Assembly: GCF_026210795.1 (NCBI RefSeq)
Contig: NC_089441.1
Coordinates: forward strand, 2,356,001 to 2,420,000
Length of the DNA stretch: 64,000 nucleotides
Reading direction: 5' to 3'
Source of the DNA: Rhizophagus irregularis
Lineage: Eukaryota; Glomeromycota; Glomeromycetes; Glomerales; Glomeraceae
The translations under genes and the position numbers were made by a program. This document shows positions 53,806 through 61,688 of this stretch, piece after piece. How positions within the stretch are numbered: position 1 is the first letter of the stretch; every line of letters starts with the position of its first letter. The notes below the pieces were generated by a model that searched no databases, was not told the DNA's origin, and saw nothing but the letters and a program-made list of their open reading frames with translations.

Positions 53806-54059
53806 AAAGCTTATAAAGTACTTTATACGTTTCAAATAGCAATTCATAGGATTGACTATGTACGAGAAGACTAATTAATTCATTTTTATCCCTGTTAATA
53901 AAAAATTTCTTGGCACTTTTCCGAGACCGCTGGTCCCGGAAATTTCTTTGAAAAATGGATCGGCAGTTTTACGGATTTTTTGATTGGTCAAAGAATGCGA
54001 CTTAGATCCTGAAGGTACTAATAACACGGGAGAGTTCGTGAACTGAGTTATCTTCAACT

Positions 54060-54760
54060 AAAATAAATAAAAACAATATTATTTCGTCAGTTAAACGCTA
54101 AAAAACTTGAATAAACTCAAATTATTTTTTTTATATTTAGTTTGTATAGCTTCTTTACCTGAAGGGCTATAATATTTTAATAAAAAATAACCGACTTCAC
54201 GAATAGATCTTTTAACTTTTGTTAGGAAACAACAGAAAAAATTGAATCAAAACGTTCATTTTAACCCAGAGAATAAAAAAAATTCTGCGTATTATGGTGA
54301 AATTTAGGTTTGCATATGACAGAAAAACCCTGCAATTTTGATCATACTGTAGTAAAAAAAAGTGATCGACAAGCTGCTAAATATGTGTTGTAGGGTTTAC
54401 GCGTTCGGTAGGTAGTAACAGAAAGAAATATAAGGATCGGTTAATAAATGGCAGGGTAATATAACGATATATGACGAGCGATAGGATAAAATTTTGTGCG
54501 GGTAAACGATAATAAACGATTGTAAACGACAATAAGTGATGTGATAGGTTTAAGCGGGTGGTGTGTTTAAAGACAATTAGTCAGTTATAAGATATATACG
54601 AAAAATCAACAATGTATGACAAAAGTTAACAAAGTGAACAATAATAAACAATAATAAACAAAAATAAACAATGTGTCAAAAAATGATAAAACGTATATGA
54701 ATAATGCGGAAACAGATCGGCAGGTTTATTAACAATTAAACAAAATACGATATTATTGCC
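54060..54760. other. Intergenic, AT-rich, unassigned
   Basis: No gene is seen. A short family of AAACGATAATAAACGA-like and AACAATAATAAACAA-like imperfect repeats lies at 54500-54670. It could be part of the retroelement remnant that follows, but no boundary can be drawn. Confidence 0.4.
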
Positions 54761-54769
54761 TCTCTCGGC

Positions 54770-55110
54770 GCTCTGTAATATCCGTATATCTATCGGTGAA
54801 AATAAAACCTAAACTAAACTTATTTCCTCTATTAATTCGGTTATTTCCTCCGTATGGTTTTCCTTGACTTTCTCTGTAGATTCTAGAAGTATGTCCTGGT
54901 TTTCCACATGTACAACAAGTCATTTCATTCCAATTAACATTATTATTTCTTTGATTATTATGAACTGAACTTATGTTGAACTCTGACTGACTTGAACTGA
55001 ACTATGAACTGCACCTCCAACAACGGTCCTTTTTATAACGTTAATATTTTGTGCAAATCTGTCTATTCGAACAGAATTGCTTATCGCCTCCCGGCCAATT
55101 GTGGCGATCT
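54770..55110 (-). mobile_element. LTR-retrotransposon gag fragment (fossil)
   Basis: On the minus strand, the sequence encodes a hydrophilic N/S/R-rich stretch (FAQNINVIKRTVVGG, NNQRNNNVNW) followed by a zinc-knuckle-like CCTCGKPGH motif near 54895-54925, the layout of the C-terminal part of a Gag protein. No protease, reverse transcriptase, integrase or long terminal repeats were identified nearby. It is a broken, old fragment. A cellular zinc-knuckle protein is the alternative. Confidence 0.5.
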
Positions 55111-56226
55111 GGGCTATACAGCCACTTGTATTCAGCCACCTTCTCACCACTATGCTTTCTAATCACTAAATATCTAAAAATAACTAAAAATAACTATACT
55201 AAAATAAAAAAATAAAAATAAAATATATATAAAAAAATTATCCCATGACAGTAACCGACAGTAACCATACATATATTGTATAGTTTGGATGACCTACTAG
55301 CATCACCATCTTTGTGGCGCATCAGCTTTTTGGCTTTTGCATAACATTTATCTTAGGAAATTTTAATGCAAATTTTTTTCGCTTCTCGCACTTTTAAAAT
55401 ATAAAGAAATTAAATTTTCATACTTTAAAGTATAAAAAATATTGATTTCATGCTTTTAAACTTTTATGTTTTTAAATTTAAAAAAAAAAATTTTTGAAAT
55501 TTGTCTGCTTATTTATTAATAAAATAATGCGTATCTCCTAATAAAATAATAAGTATAGTAAATAAACCTAAATAAATATAAAAACGCGTCTCTCCTAATA
55601 GATATAACAAGTACAATAAATAATACCTAAATAAATATATAAACGCACTCATATTACCTAAAGAGATTTAAAAAATGTATAATGCATTTAATATTGTTAC
55701 AAAATATAAAAATAACTCCACAAATATGTAAACAAACCAACAATAAGTTTTAAATTTTGTACTTAAATAATAAACTTTTATCTGACATTAAATAAAGGAA
55801 GAAAAAAAAGAAAGGAGAGTTTCGAAAGTTACAAAATCACTGCTGTTAAACGTAAATAAATTAAATCAATGAGGCTGATGTGGCACAAAATCACGCGGGG
55901 CAGAAGACTATACATGTATGGACTGTATGGTTACTAAAAATGGATGTATATCATACATGCGAAAAAATCAACTGTACAAAACATATTTAGCTAGTAACCG
56001 TTCAATACATGTTTTCTATACACCCGAAATCAATGCATCGGGTCCAGATATATTTGCGTAGCATTGATGAAACATATTGTTGTTACATTAATTCTGACTG
56101 TAATATTTAATACTGCTAAATTTAGAATGTTTAAAATTTATGTTAAAAATCCAGATTGTATTTAAACGAAAAAAAATTCTTTTCCTAACATTTGACATGA
56201 AATTGTTTATTTAAAAAAAAATCAAA
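55111..56226. other. Intergenic, AT-rich; 5' flank of the Sel1-kinase gene
   Basis: No gene is seen. A pair of approximately 60-bp direct repeats (CTCCTAATA..AATAAACCTAAATAAATATA..ACGC) lies at about 55535-55640. The 200 bp before the ATG at 56227 contain no clear TATA element beyond general AT-richness. Confidence 0.45.
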
Positions 56227-59200
56227 ATGTCAAGTAATAATATTAGTATTAGTGCACAATATGTTCTTGCATGTTTACGTAATCATATTACACAATATAA
56301 TCTTGCATTTTTTTATTGCAATAGTGAAAAAACAGAAAAGAATTTAAAAAATATCTTTTACTGGTTTCAAAAAGCAGCTGAAAATGGTAATGAGCTTGCT
56401 ATGTATAATCTTGCATTATTATATGAAAAAACAGAAAAAAATTTGAAAAATCTCTTTATTGGTATCAAAAATTAGCTGAAAATGGTAATGAACGCGTACA
56501 ATATAAACTTGCATGTATATACTACAATGGTGAAGAAACTGAAAAAAATTTGAAAAAAGCCTTTTATTGGTTTCAAAAAGCAGCAGAAAGTGGTAATAAT
56601 CTTGCAATGTATAATCTTTCATGTTTATATGACTATGGCGAAGGTACTGAAAAGAATTTAAAAAAAGCCTTTTACTGGAATCAAAAAGCAGCGGAAAATG
56701 GCAATGAGTTTGCAATGTATAATCTTGCACATTTTTATAACAATGGTAAAGGGACGGAGAAGAATCTAGAAAAAACCTTTTATTGGTTTCAAAAAGCAGC
56801 AGAAAATGGCAATGAAGATGCAATGTATAATCTTGCATTATTATATGAAGAAACAGAACATAATTTAGAAAAAGCCTTTTATTGGTATCAAATAGCAGCA
56901 AAAAGGGATGATGTCAAAGCACAATATAATCTTGCACATTGTTATGAAAATGGTAAAGGAACAGAAAAGAATTTAGAGAAAGCCATTTATTGGCATCAAA
57001 TAGCAGCAAAAAGAGATCACGTCAACGCACAATGTTATCTTGCACATTTTTATAAAAATGGTAAAGGAACAGAAAAGAATCTAGAGAAAGCCATTTATTG
57101 GTATTTAAAAGCAGCAAAAAATGGAAATATATCTGCAATTTATAATCTTGCATTATTATATAGTGAAGAAAAGAATTTAGAAGAATCCTTTTATTGGTAT
57201 CAAATAGCAGCAAAAAAGGATCATATTAACGCACAACATAATCTTGCATGTTGTTATTACGATGGTAAAGGGACAGATAAGAATTTAGAAAAAGCTTTCT
57301 ACTGGTTTCAAAAGGCAGCAGAAAATGGTAACAAACATGCAATGTATACTCTCGCATGTTTATATAACAATGGTGGTAAAGAGATAGAAAAGAATTTAGA
57401 GAAAGCCTTTTATTGGTTTCAAAAAGCGGCAGAAAAGGATCATATTAATGCACAAAGTGATCTTGCACATGTTTATAAAAATGGTAAAGGGACAGAAAAA
57501 AATTTAGAAAAAGCTTTTTATTGGTTTCAAAAGGCAGCAGAAAATGGTAGTGAGTTTGCAATTTATAATCTTGCATGTTTATATGATGATGGTGAAGGAA
57601 CTGAAAAGAATTTAGAAAAAGCTTCATATTGGTATCAAAAAGCAGCAGAAAGTGGTGATAAGCTTGCTATGTATAAACTTGCATTATTATATCAAAAAAC
57701 AGAAAAAAAATTAGAAAAATCACTTTATTGGTACCAAAAAATAGCTGCAGATGGTAACGAAGAAATTCAATATAAACTTGCCCTCTTATATTATAACAGT
57801 AAAGAAATAGAAAATAATTTAGAAAAAGCCTTTTATTTGTACCAAAAAGCAGCAGAACGAAATCATATCGATGCACAATATCATCTTGCAAGTTTGTATG
57901 ACAATGGCGAGGGAATAGAAAAGAATTTAGAAAAAGCCTTATATTGGTATCAAAAAGCAGCTGAAAATGGTAATGAACTTGCAATGTGTAAACTTGCATT
58001 ATTATACGAAGAAATGGAAAATAATTTAGAAAAAGCCTTTTATTGGTATCAAAAAGCAGCTGAAAATGGTAATGAATTTGCAATGTGTGGAATTGCATTA
58101 TTATATGAAGAAATGGAAAATAATTTAGAAAAAGCCTTTTATTGGTATCAAAAAGCAGCTGAAAATGGTAATGAAGGTGCAATGCGTAAACTTGCTTTAT
58201 TATATGAAGGAACAGAAAAGAATTTAGAAAAAGCCTTTTATTGGTATCAAAAAGCGGCAGAATTTGGTAATGAACTCGTACAATATAAACTTGCATGTTT
58301 ATACTACAGCAATAAAGATATAGAAAACTATTTAGAAAAAGCATTTTATTGGTTTGAAAAATCAGCAGAAAATGGTAATAAAATTGCACAACATAATCTT
58401 GCATCATTATATTACTCTGGTAAAGGAACAGAAAGAAATTTAGAAAAAGCCTTTTATTGGTATCAAAAAGCAGCAGAAAATGGACATGAGAATGCAATGC
58501 ATAATCTTGCATGTTTATATAATCATGGCGAAGGAACAGAAATAAATTCAGAAAAAGCCTTTTATTGGAATCAAAAAGCAGCAGAAAAGGATCATATCGA
58601 TGCACAATGTAGTCTTGCATATTTGTACAAAAATGGTAAAGGAACAGAAGAGAATTTAGAAAAAGCCTTTTATTGGTATCAAAAAGCAGCTGAAAATGGT
58701 AATGAATTTGCAATGTGTGGACTTGCATTATTATATGAAGAAATGGAAAATAATTTAGAAAAAGCCTTTTATTGGTATCAAAAAGCAGCTGAAAATGGTA
58801 ATGAAGGTGCAATGCGTAAACTTGCTTTATTATATGAAGGAACAGAAAAGAATTTAGAAAAAGCCTTTTATTGGTATCAAAAAGCGGCAGAATTTGGTAA
58901 TGAACTCGTACAATATAAACTTGCATGTTTATACTACAGCAATAAAGATATAGAAAACTATTTAGAAAAAGCATTTTATTGGTTTGAAAAATCAGCAGAA
59001 AATGGTAATAAAATTGCACAACATAATCTTGCATCATTATATTACTCTGGTAAAGGAACAGAAAGAAATAATTTAGAAAAAGCCTTTTATTGGTATCAAA
59101 AAGCAGCAGAAAATGGACATGAGAATGCAATGCATAATCTTGCATGTTTATATAATCATGGCGAAGGAACAGAAATAAATTCAGAAAAAGCCTTTTATTG

Positions 59201-61688
59201 GAATCAAAAAGCAGCAGAAAAGGATCATATCGATGCACAATGTAGTCTTGCATATTTGTACAAAAATGGTAAAGGAACAGAAGAGAATTTAGAAAAAGCC
59301 TTTTATTGGTATCAAAAAGCAGCAGAAAAGGATCATATCGATGCACAATGTAACCTTGCATATTTGTACAAAAATGGTAAAGGAACAGAAGAGAATTTAG
59401 AAAAGGCCTTCTATTGGTATCAAAAAGCAGCGGAAAGAAATTCTATTAATGCACAATATAATCTTGCACGTTTGAATAGTGAAGGAACAGAAAAGAACTT
59501 AGAAAAAGCCTTTTATTGGTATCAAAAAGCAGCAGAAAATAATGATAAATATGCGATGAATAATTTAGCTGTTTGTTATAACAATGGCGAAGGAACAGAA
59601 AAGAATTTTGAAAAGGCCTTTTATTGGTATCAAAAAGCAGCAGAAATGGATCATATTGATGCACAATATTATCTTGCACGTTTGTATGACAACGGTCAAG
59701 GAACAGAAAGGAATCTAGAAAAAGCGTTTTATTTGTATCAAAAAGCAGCAGAAAAGAATCAGATCAAAGCACAATATAATCTTGCATGTATATATTACGC
59801 TGGTGAAGTGATAGAAAAGAATTTAGAAAAATCATTTTATTGGTATCAAAGAGCAGCAGAAGGTGGTAATACCAATGCGATGAGTATTTTAGCTCTATAT
59901 TATGTAAGTGATGATGAAGGAATACTAGAAAAAAATTTAGAAAAAGCATTTTATTGGAATCAAAAAGCAGCAGAAAATGGTAATGAAATTGCACAACATA
60001 ATCTTGCATCATTATATTACTATGGTAAAGGAACAGAAAGAAATTTAGAAAAAGCATTTTATTGGAATCAAAAAGCAGCAGAAAATGATAGTGCTAAATC
60101 ACAATATAACCTTGCATGTTTATATTATAATGGTGAAGGGACAGAAAAGAACTTAGAAAAAGCCTTTTATTGGAATCAAAAAGCAGCAGAAAAGGATCAT
60201 ATTGATGCACAATATCATCTTGCAAGTATGTTTTACAATGGTGAAGGAACAGAAAGAAATTTAGAAAAAGCCTTTTATTGGTACCATAAAGCAGCAAAAA
60301 GTGGTAATGAAGATGCAATGGGTAATTTAATTATCTGTTATAAATATGCTATGGGAATAGAAAAGGATTTAGAAAAAGCTTTTTATTGGTATCAAAAAGT
60401 AACAGAAAATAGCAAAGTTAATAGTGGTAAATGTAAAGAATGCAATCAACTATATATTGGTTATCAATGGTGTCAACAGTGTAATTCTAAGCGATTTCAA
60501 CAAGACTTTTTAAAATGGACTAGTGGAAATAAATTTATTGATAAATTTATTCAAGATGCACAACTAAATGCTAAAAATATCAATGAAGTATTAGAATGGA
60601 TTCCTTATAACAAATTGAATAATATCAACTATTATGATAAAGGAGGATTTGGTACAATTGATAAGGCTATCTGGTTAGACGGACCTATTGATAGTTGGGA
60701 TTTCGACAAACAACAATGGAATAGATGGACTTTACAAAAAGGTTATGAAGTTATTCTTAAAAACCTTAATAATTTTTCAGATTTAGATGACGAATTTTTA
60801 AATGAATGGAAGTATAATTATAATTGTCAGAAAAAATCATTTTCAAAATTTGTTCGATTTTTTGGAATTACTCAAGATCCAAATAGTTTAAATTATATGA
60901 TAGTAATGAGCTATGTAAAAGAAGGAAGCTTGAGAAAATGTTTACCCAATATAGTTAAACTTAATTGGTATGATAAATTACAATTATTGAAAAAAATTAT
61001 TTTGGGACTTAAAATAATACATGAATCTGGTCTTGTTCATCGTGATCTTCATGATGGTAATATTTTGATATCAAATAATGAGATTTATATTATTGATTTA
61101 GGATTATGTAATTCTGTAAGTAATTTACAAAATTCTGAAAATATTTATGGTGTTATGCCTTATATAGCACCTGAAGTATTAAGAGGTAACCCTTACACTT
61201 CAGCAAGTGATATCTATAGTTTTTCAATGATAATGTGGGAATTTACATCAGGTGTTCCTCCATTTTATGGTGAAGAATATGATTACCAACTTAATCTAAG
61301 CATTTGTGAAGGAGAACGTCCTGAAATTATAAAAAATACTCCAGAGAATTATAAAGATTTGATGAAAGCATGTTGGGACTCAGAACCTACCAAAAGACCA
61401 ACTTTAAAAGCTATTGAAAGCACGATATCTGAATGGCTTAGTTTTTTTAATAAATATATAATAGTTGATGGAATTGAACATATGACAATGGGTGATACAG
61501 ATACTAATAGTTCCCAAGTAGTAAGTATTATGAGAGAATTTGCAAAAGCTCTAGAACGGAAACAATTTAATACTAGTACTTTTGCGATGCAATCTCATCC
61601 ATCAGAATGTGATAAAATTTATTCATTTGAAATCTTGGATGAAAATTTTATTTCTAATAACTCTGATTGCTTAGATTGTATAATTTAA
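56227..61688 (+). CDS. Giant Sel1-repeat protein with zinc ribbon and C-terminal protein-kinase-like domain; one apparent frameshift
   Basis: No intron is visible. ATG 56227 opens SSNNISISAQYVLACLRNHI, then about 38 Sel1 repeats of 34-36 aa (consensus EKNLEKAFYWYQKAAENGNE, then AMYNLACLYYNGEGT) run to about 60410. A ribbon CKECNQLYIGYQWCQQC (60430-60485) links to a kinase domain (about 60630-61445): G-loop KGGFGTI, beta3 Lys in VILKNL, HRDLHDGN, DLGLCN in place of DFG, APEVLRGNPYTSASDIYSFS, and CWDSEPTKRPTLKAI. Lys, HRD Asp, Asn and the DLG Asp are all kept, so catalysis is plausible; the type is TKL-like. Sel1 repeats form alpha-solenoids that scaffold complexes such as Hrd3/Sel1L and Chs3 activators. 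The frame slips by one base in an A-run near 56435-56450; restoring one base gives about 1820 aa, and the rest is open. It could be a sequencing error, a dead start with a downstream start, or a true frameshift. Sel1-kinase genes are a known expanded class in this genus. Confidence 0.88.
56427..56453 (+). other. Apparent -1 frameshift in an A-run of the Sel1-kinase gene
   Basis: Upstream repeats read in one frame and stop at TAG just after GIKN. The next repeat (SLYWYQKLAENGNERVQYKL) continues in the +1-base frame. By comparison with the sister repeat at about 57710, one base is missing within TTTGAAAAATCTC. Homopolymer context makes an assembly or sequencing error the first suspect. Confidence 0.75.
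58050..59313 (+). repeat. Recent in-frame tandem duplication of about 630 bp within the Sel1 array
   Basis: Six Sel1 repeats (about 210 aa) starting near NGNEFAMCG at 58081 recur from 58711 with, by eye, one substitution (I to L, AATTGC/ACTTGC) and one 3-base insertion (ERN to ERNN). Silent sites are unchanged, so the duplication is much younger than the surrounding repeats, whose DNA has diverged. Confidence 0.92.

Follow-up and report, generated by a model that had tools for sequence, protein, structure and literature searches.

According to the accessible portions of several reports, genes encoding Sel1 repeats and kinases have expanded in the mycorrhizal fungi to which Rhizophagus irregularis belongs (PMC8647823, PMC9453076, PMC6123716, PMC7550596, PMC11075540), and one of these sources, as far as it was available, describes raised CG methylation in both classes (PMC8647823). 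The accessible part of a review assigns Sel1-like proteins roles in signalling and quality control (PMC11514114). For plants, pattern-recognition receptors are described, in the section consulted, as having non-RD kinases, with Cys or Gly in place of the Arg of the HRD motif, which are partnered by RD kinases such as BAK1 (PMC3411088). In the open-access literature on Sel1, kinases and mycorrhizal fungi, as far as its text was accessible, we found no report of the non-RD pattern in Sel1-linked kinases. Here we describe a gene of R. irregularis that joins a long array of Sel1 repeats to a zinc-ribbon-like motif and a kinase domain. It lies in a 64,000-nucleotide (nt) stretch of contig NC_089441.1 (positions 2,356,001-2,420,000, forward strand), hereafter the window, whose own numbering is used below; all features of the window gene are on the plus strand. 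Judged from its sequence, this is a real gene-like locus of ordinary architecture, in which the absence of an intron is unmatched by motif counts and the RD state of the kinase is rare in a mostly non-RD family. We consider it reasonably probable that the gene belongs to a large amplified family with the order Sel1(n)-ribbon-kinase and was most likely made or rewritten through spliced RNA.

The family was delineated by searches of the same genome (146.7 megabases, 32 contigs) with two queries, the ribbon-kinase part and the last repeats together with the ribbon; the counts refer to the matches listed and are lower bounds. At least 92 other loci reach the end of the ribbon, and in about 90 of them Sel1 repeats lie in the same open frame, C15:471545 and C2:1532306 reaching the ribbon with no or just a few Sel1 residues among the matches listed. 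The window gene has the family order, with the Sel1 array, a CxxC-x9-CxxC ribbon and the kinase N-lobe in one exon. In the 92 listed relatives, the open frame of this Sel1-ribbon exon has a median length of 923.5 amino acids (aa), which may include non-Sel1 ends, and six of the frames (1503, 1568, 1939, 1972, 2015 and 2447 aa) are longer than the 1460 aa that the window gene spans up to the exon junction. A motif pattern that follows the ribbon occurs at 1345 sites genome-wide (reversed control, 0). Given some 90 loci of the same order, six longer frames and these 1345 sites, both the order and the length are ordinary in this genome; thus, the first-pass annotation, a reading of the sequence made before this analysis, overstated the case when it singled out the combination of ribbon and long array and called the repeat number extreme. 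No relatives were found in viral contigs. The 2447-aa frame to the ribbon belongs to a relative at C4:456316-463700 (minus strand, far end approximate), in which Sel1 matches extend at least to 461688 and which likely contains many more Sel1 units than the window gene. Frame breaks or stops were seen in the arrays of L003, L059, L067 and L069 and in the kinase parts of L043 and L050, which suggests that family members often decay, or that the assembly has slipped at these points.

The first of two features that stand out in the window gene is located in the kinase N-lobe. In all 48 loci in which the ribbon and kinase parts were read (46 distinct relatives), a phase 0 GT-AG intron with a length of 62-88 nt (median 75) begins immediately after the codon for the alphaC Glu, within the context GAG/GT...AG/TGG, where the last codon is TGG or a close variant. 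At the corresponding GAA/TGG junction of the window gene (alphaC Glu and Trp, 60804..60809), the coding sequence is uninterrupted, and the gene departs in this from every relative read. Exact-motif counts across the genome gave 97 intron-bearing sites and a single intronless one, the window gene itself, with 0 hits for the reversed controls; such counts need the exact motif, and divergent copies are missed. By these counts, no other copy lacks the intron. Retrogenes are expected to have lost their introns precisely; the one intron site considered here is precisely empty, which may reflect either loss in this copy or a later gain in the relatives.

The kinase itself, whose core extends from the glycine loop GGFGTI to KRPT (60642..61403, by Pfam and motifs), was recovered in the same frame as the Sel1 array by two profiles, PF07714 (E 2.6e-38) and PF00069 (E 2.6e-37), whose matches start at profile position 23-25, just ahead of the beta3 Lys. 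These matches place the kinase among tyrosine-kinase-like domains. Key elements of an active protein kinase, namely the glycine loop, beta3 Lys, alphaC Glu, HRD Asp, Asn, metal-binding Asp and APE, were located by motif, as was said of most of them in the first-pass annotation (Lys, HRD, Asn, the DLG Asp and APE). The replacement of DFG by DLG, also pointed out there, is present (IDLGL, 61092..61106) and yet no peculiarity, since 42 of 44 relatives share the Leu. Among these 44 relatives, the Lys, the alphaC Glu, the His and Asp of HRD, the Asn, the Asp and Gly of DLG and the Pro and Glu of APE are invariant, as are the four ribbon Cys, and the APE Ala (APEVL, marking the end of the activation segment at 61167..61181 by motif) is conserved in 43. 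The third Gly of the glycine loop is Ser in 39 relatives and Gly in 5, the window gene having GGFG.

The catalytic loop of the window gene, HRDLHDGN (61038..61061), retains the Arg and makes this an RD kinase, whereas 43 of the 44 relatives are non-RD: the loop motif is HGD in 33, HCD in 10 and HRD in one (L067). Genome-wide, H[G/C]D with the family flank was found at 221 sites and the Arg version at 5. One of the latter, C11:4148887, lies inside a family match (C11:4148331-4149149), which together with the window gene and L067 gives at least three RD members. Thus, on the sequences compared, the RD state is rare in the family, not unique to this gene. Within the first 100 of the 221 sites, 51 are HGD, of which 38 adjoin the intron motif; the other 49 are HCD, and 48 of these lie away from it. 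Hence, there is probably a second large group of HCD (HCDFHDGN) kinases apart from the intron motif of the Sel1-ribbon-kinase family, and it may represent the nearest outgroup.

The repeat array (56445..60431, defined by Pfam and anchor cutting) is cut by an EKAFYW-like anchor into 38 units, the last of which is partial; 25 of the 37 complete units, which range from 32 to 38 aa, are 36 aa long. In the main frame, PF08238 scores 998 bits over 32 stretches, above its cut-off, identifying a Sel1-like repeat protein, and the earlier estimate of about 38 units stands. So does the claim of recent internal growth: direct alignment of a block of six repeats (58029..58658, 630 bp) with the tandem copy that follows it (58659..59291, 633 bp) shows 629 of 630 aligned bases to be identical, plus one in-frame 3-nt insertion. 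This internal duplication of 630 bp is real and recent.

Variation along the repeat unit is concentrated at positions 15-17, 20, 21, 24, 25 and 27, both in the window array (22 units of 36 aa, with the duplicate block dropped) and in 439 units of relatives; position 13 is variable too in the window array, and Trp 6, Ala 11 and Leu 22 hardly vary. By the anatomy of Sel1 repeats, the variable positions would fall in and before helix A, as expected of a binding face. Pooled over only 4 pairs, the ratio of nonsynonymous to synonymous substitutions (dN/dS) was 0.83 at the 8 variable positions and 0.27 elsewhere. In 3 of the 4 pairs dS was likewise raised at the variable positions, which points to repeat exchange or misalignment. 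Diversifying selection, which the recognition proposed at first would imply, is therefore not borne out by this weak test, which was negative for positive selection on the repeats. The accompanying idea of a solenoid scaffold linked to a kinase fares better: it is a fair reading, and the variable positions gather in one region of the unit that is common to this array and its relatives.

The 5' end of the gene is less regular. The main Sel1-kinase open frame (56427..61688; 1753 codons plus stop) opens just past the stop codon at 56424, and the earliest ATG in it (56607) sits within a repeat; the probability of such a frame arising by chance is negligible (log10 P about -68, from base composition with bases taken as independent). 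Upstream, an ATG-initiated frame of 82 aa (56227..56475, TAG-terminated) contains a Sel1 unit that scores 27.6 bits, below the Pfam cut-off of 30.7, in a phase different from that of the main frame. Because of this phase difference and the stop at 56475, 56227-61688 is not one open reading frame; of the single unit previously drawn over this interval, what holds is that Sel1, ribbon and kinase share the frame 56427-61688. One frame gives way to the other near the beginning of the array, somewhere between about 56440 and 56475, and the change is compatible with slippage by one base in an A run. Among the 40 shortest GT-AG candidates for an intron bridging the 5' end, one of 89 nt (56387-56475) would lengthen the repeat register by 3 residues and one of 32 nt is very short; both are candidates, neither of them favoured.

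How the intronless copy arose was assessed from trees, constraint and flanks. In the tree without outgroup (45 rows), the window gene groups with L012 (95/76), and both join an eight-row group around L002 (98/97); among six C-terminal tails compared, the ending DCII-stop is common to the window gene, L002 and L007. Several observations weigh against an origin through spliced RNA or against a functional product. When three distant ribbon-less Sel1 kinases (L042, L028 and L045) are included as outgroup (27 ingroup rows), the window gene becomes the first branch (87/30), a position from which the intron could be a later gain in the other members, and the matching alphaC site is intronless in L042 and L028, both of which carry GGFG and HRD. 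No long poly(A) tract was seen by eye after 61688, and no target-site duplication was demonstrated, though no search aimed at one was made. Compared with L012, L002 and L007, the kinase shows dN/dS values of 0.55, 0.50 and 0.42 (NG86), at or above those of most of six within-family control pairs (0.16-0.49, NG86), so constraint may be relaxed; the same values also count in favour of the proposed explanation, the kinase being kept, but not tightly. Ser/Thr-type kinases have HRDxK in the catalytic loop; the position of this Lys is His in the window gene and in 43 of 44 relatives, and kinase activity is thus not assured. To these are added the 5' frame break and the dN/dS at the variable repeat positions, which does not exceed 1. 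In the flanks, where homology to relatives would be a sign of segmental duplication, there were short matches only, the longest of 126 bases at 72%. The tree with outgroup would suit an early-branching relic that kept an ancestral state with no intron, HRD and GGFG, the others having acquired the intron in a single event and given up the Arg stepwise (CGT->TGT->GGT). The branching order fits this history: the window gene splits off first, L012 (HCD and GGFG, with the intron) second and the L002 group (HCD in most members, GGFS) third, ahead of the remaining members, most of which are HGD; the outgroup states fit it too. However, at 2.45 the outgroup branch is very long, which makes long-branch attraction possible, and the uneven support for the first branch is of concern; the outgroup-free tree places the window gene elsewhere; and HCD may be ancestral if the second large HCD group is taken into account. 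Holding the window gene to L012 plus the L002 group raised the likelihood by 4.4 (approximately unbiased (AU) test, p 0.633), and holding it to L012 alone lowered it by 2.7 (AU p 0.317); hence, no placement is rejected. We regard the relic as somewhat unlikely.

Another possibility is decay: the locus would be an intronless retrocopy that lacks an intact start and is by now a pseudogene, its long frame surviving through youth. The 5' frameshift, the array breaks in relatives such as L003, L059, L067 and L069, and a kinase dN/dS on the high side for the family would all agree with this. Yet the kinase is 59-69% identical to its 44 relatives, a separation long enough for stops to appear at neutral rates, and is fully open with its key motifs intact; moreover, no frame-breaking indel occurs between 56427 and the ribbon despite the variable unit lengths. 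Decay is, in our assessment, unlikely. The frame break might instead be a homopolymer assembly error, with the true start at ATG 56227 and an unbroken protein, given that the change of frame is located at an A run and that, by inspection, a one-base change there preserves the repeat register. Breaks in other family arrays speak against such an error, and we hold it to be quite possible, if not quite probable. Finally, an L002-type exon encoding Sel1, ribbon and N-lobe could have been joined to a different kinase C-lobe, which would explain an intron gap at the exact exon border and is in line with median identities to relatives of 0.74 for exon 1 versus 0.68 for the exon 2 core. But both exons have their nearest relatives in the same L002/L007 group, and L065 equals the difference in identity, so an exon chimera is unsupported and extremely improbable. 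On balance, our judgement from the sequence comparisons is that intron loss, most simply via complementary DNA, is likely and to be favoured over ancestral absence of the intron. Contig C13, on which the window gene is the only match among the matches listed, offers an isolated position that agrees with retroposition and is no proof of it.

Between the array and the kinase, the zinc-ribbon-like CKEC-x9-CQQC (60432..60482), whose four Cys are present in all 44 relatives, is followed by a WTSGN motif (60516..60530, by motif position). The stretch from the ribbon to the N-lobe (60411-60806) had no Pfam match up to E 1. Considering the 1345 genomic sites of the post-ribbon pattern, we seem to be dealing with a module that has been massively amplified and for which Pfam has no model. 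On contig C2, WTSGN..ID motifs form runs with a spacing of about 470-550 bp and a few larger gaps, including 8 sites at C2:394378-399817 (minus strand), 11 sites at C2:2168589-2174137 (plus strand) and 7 sites at C2:420958-425308 (plus strand). A second ribbon (CxYCNKPF..[WY]CKEC) lies N-terminal to the array in 9 of the relatives with an available start (L054, L062, L064, L066, L070 with YCKEC, L073, L074, L076 and L079), so that similar ribbons flank the array at both ends. For the window gene, none was found in 54001-56500 of the window; some other relatives are without one too, and the N-terminal ribbon may not define the family. Elsewhere in the window, the region 5245-27712 contains long open frames that by eye resemble conserved core genes, presumably a P4-ATPase-like protein, a transporter, a methyltransferase and an alpha-mannosidase; hence, the kinase gene seems to neighbour core genes and not a Sel1 cluster. 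Four points had been overlooked in the first-pass annotation: the 5' frame break, the absence of the intron, the division between RD and non-RD members, and the His that occupies the catalytic-loop Lys position.

Under the proposed explanation, in which the window gene is a family member that passed through spliced RNA, the protein would be intracellular, as suggested by the lack of any strongly hydrophobic 19-residue stretch (largest 19-residue hydropathy, 1.04). Its Sel1 rod would bind a partner via the variable face, and clustering or release of the bound partner would regulate the attached tyrosine-kinase-like kinase. A spliced RNA intermediate would have removed the sole intron seen in the ribbon-kinase part of the relatives, after which the copy would have evolved as an RD-type kinase, with its array apparently continuing to expand through duplication of blocks. 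Should the frame break be real, translation would have to start inside the array, for example at ATG 56607, which the repeat design would tolerate. Partner binding and kinase regulation are predictions. If the family is a recognition system, R. irregularis would hold about 100 paralogues with a natural non-RD/RD split and one intronless RD member as a contrast, and the role of the expanded Sel1 and kinase genes in mycorrhizal fungi would become testable; if it is not, the locus would still provide a clear example of an intron lost or gained within a rapidly expanding family. A ribbon next to a long array should be treated with caution, as it is no mark of something special in this genome. The non-RD pattern of the family is of greater interest than the window gene itself.

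Comparison with known systems shows likeness at several levels. Among the best sequence matches in the PDB are EGFR, RIPK1, SYK, CTR1, MLT and TAK1 (E about 7e-23 to 9e-20), members of the tyrosine-kinase and tyrosine-kinase-like groups. The likeness is that of the kinase domain, from whose usual motifs the DLG and HRDLH of the window gene depart; to our knowledge, none of these six proteins has a Sel1 array or a ribbon. Closer to home, the ribbon-less Sel1 kinases L042 and L028 of the same genome likewise have a Sel1 array followed by a kinase, but differ in having DFG and HRD, introns elsewhere and, in the stretch read, no ribbon-WTSGN module. The high-copy class C genes of R. irregularis resemble the family in their amplified Sel1 repeats and PF07714-type kinases; the accounts of them, in the portions available, cover domain counts and methylation, but neither the order of Sel1, ribbon and kinase nor the intron common to the relatives nor their non-RD state (PMC8647823, PMC6123716). 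As described in the accessible part of the plant literature, FLS2, EFR and XA21 combine a repeat solenoid with a kinase that has Cys or Gly for the HRD Arg (PMC3411088), as do 43 of the 44 relatives examined here; those receptors are built of leucine-rich repeats and span the membrane, whereas the proteins considered here have Sel1 repeats and no evident membrane stretch, and the window copy is RD. No common descent of the trait is claimed. By analogy, and as a long shot, about 100 intracellular Sel1-solenoid receptors with variable binding faces and non-RD (HGD/HCD) kinases might form a fungal counterpart of the plant pattern-recognition kinases, in which the window gene would act as an RD partner in the way that BAK1 does for FLS2 and EFR.

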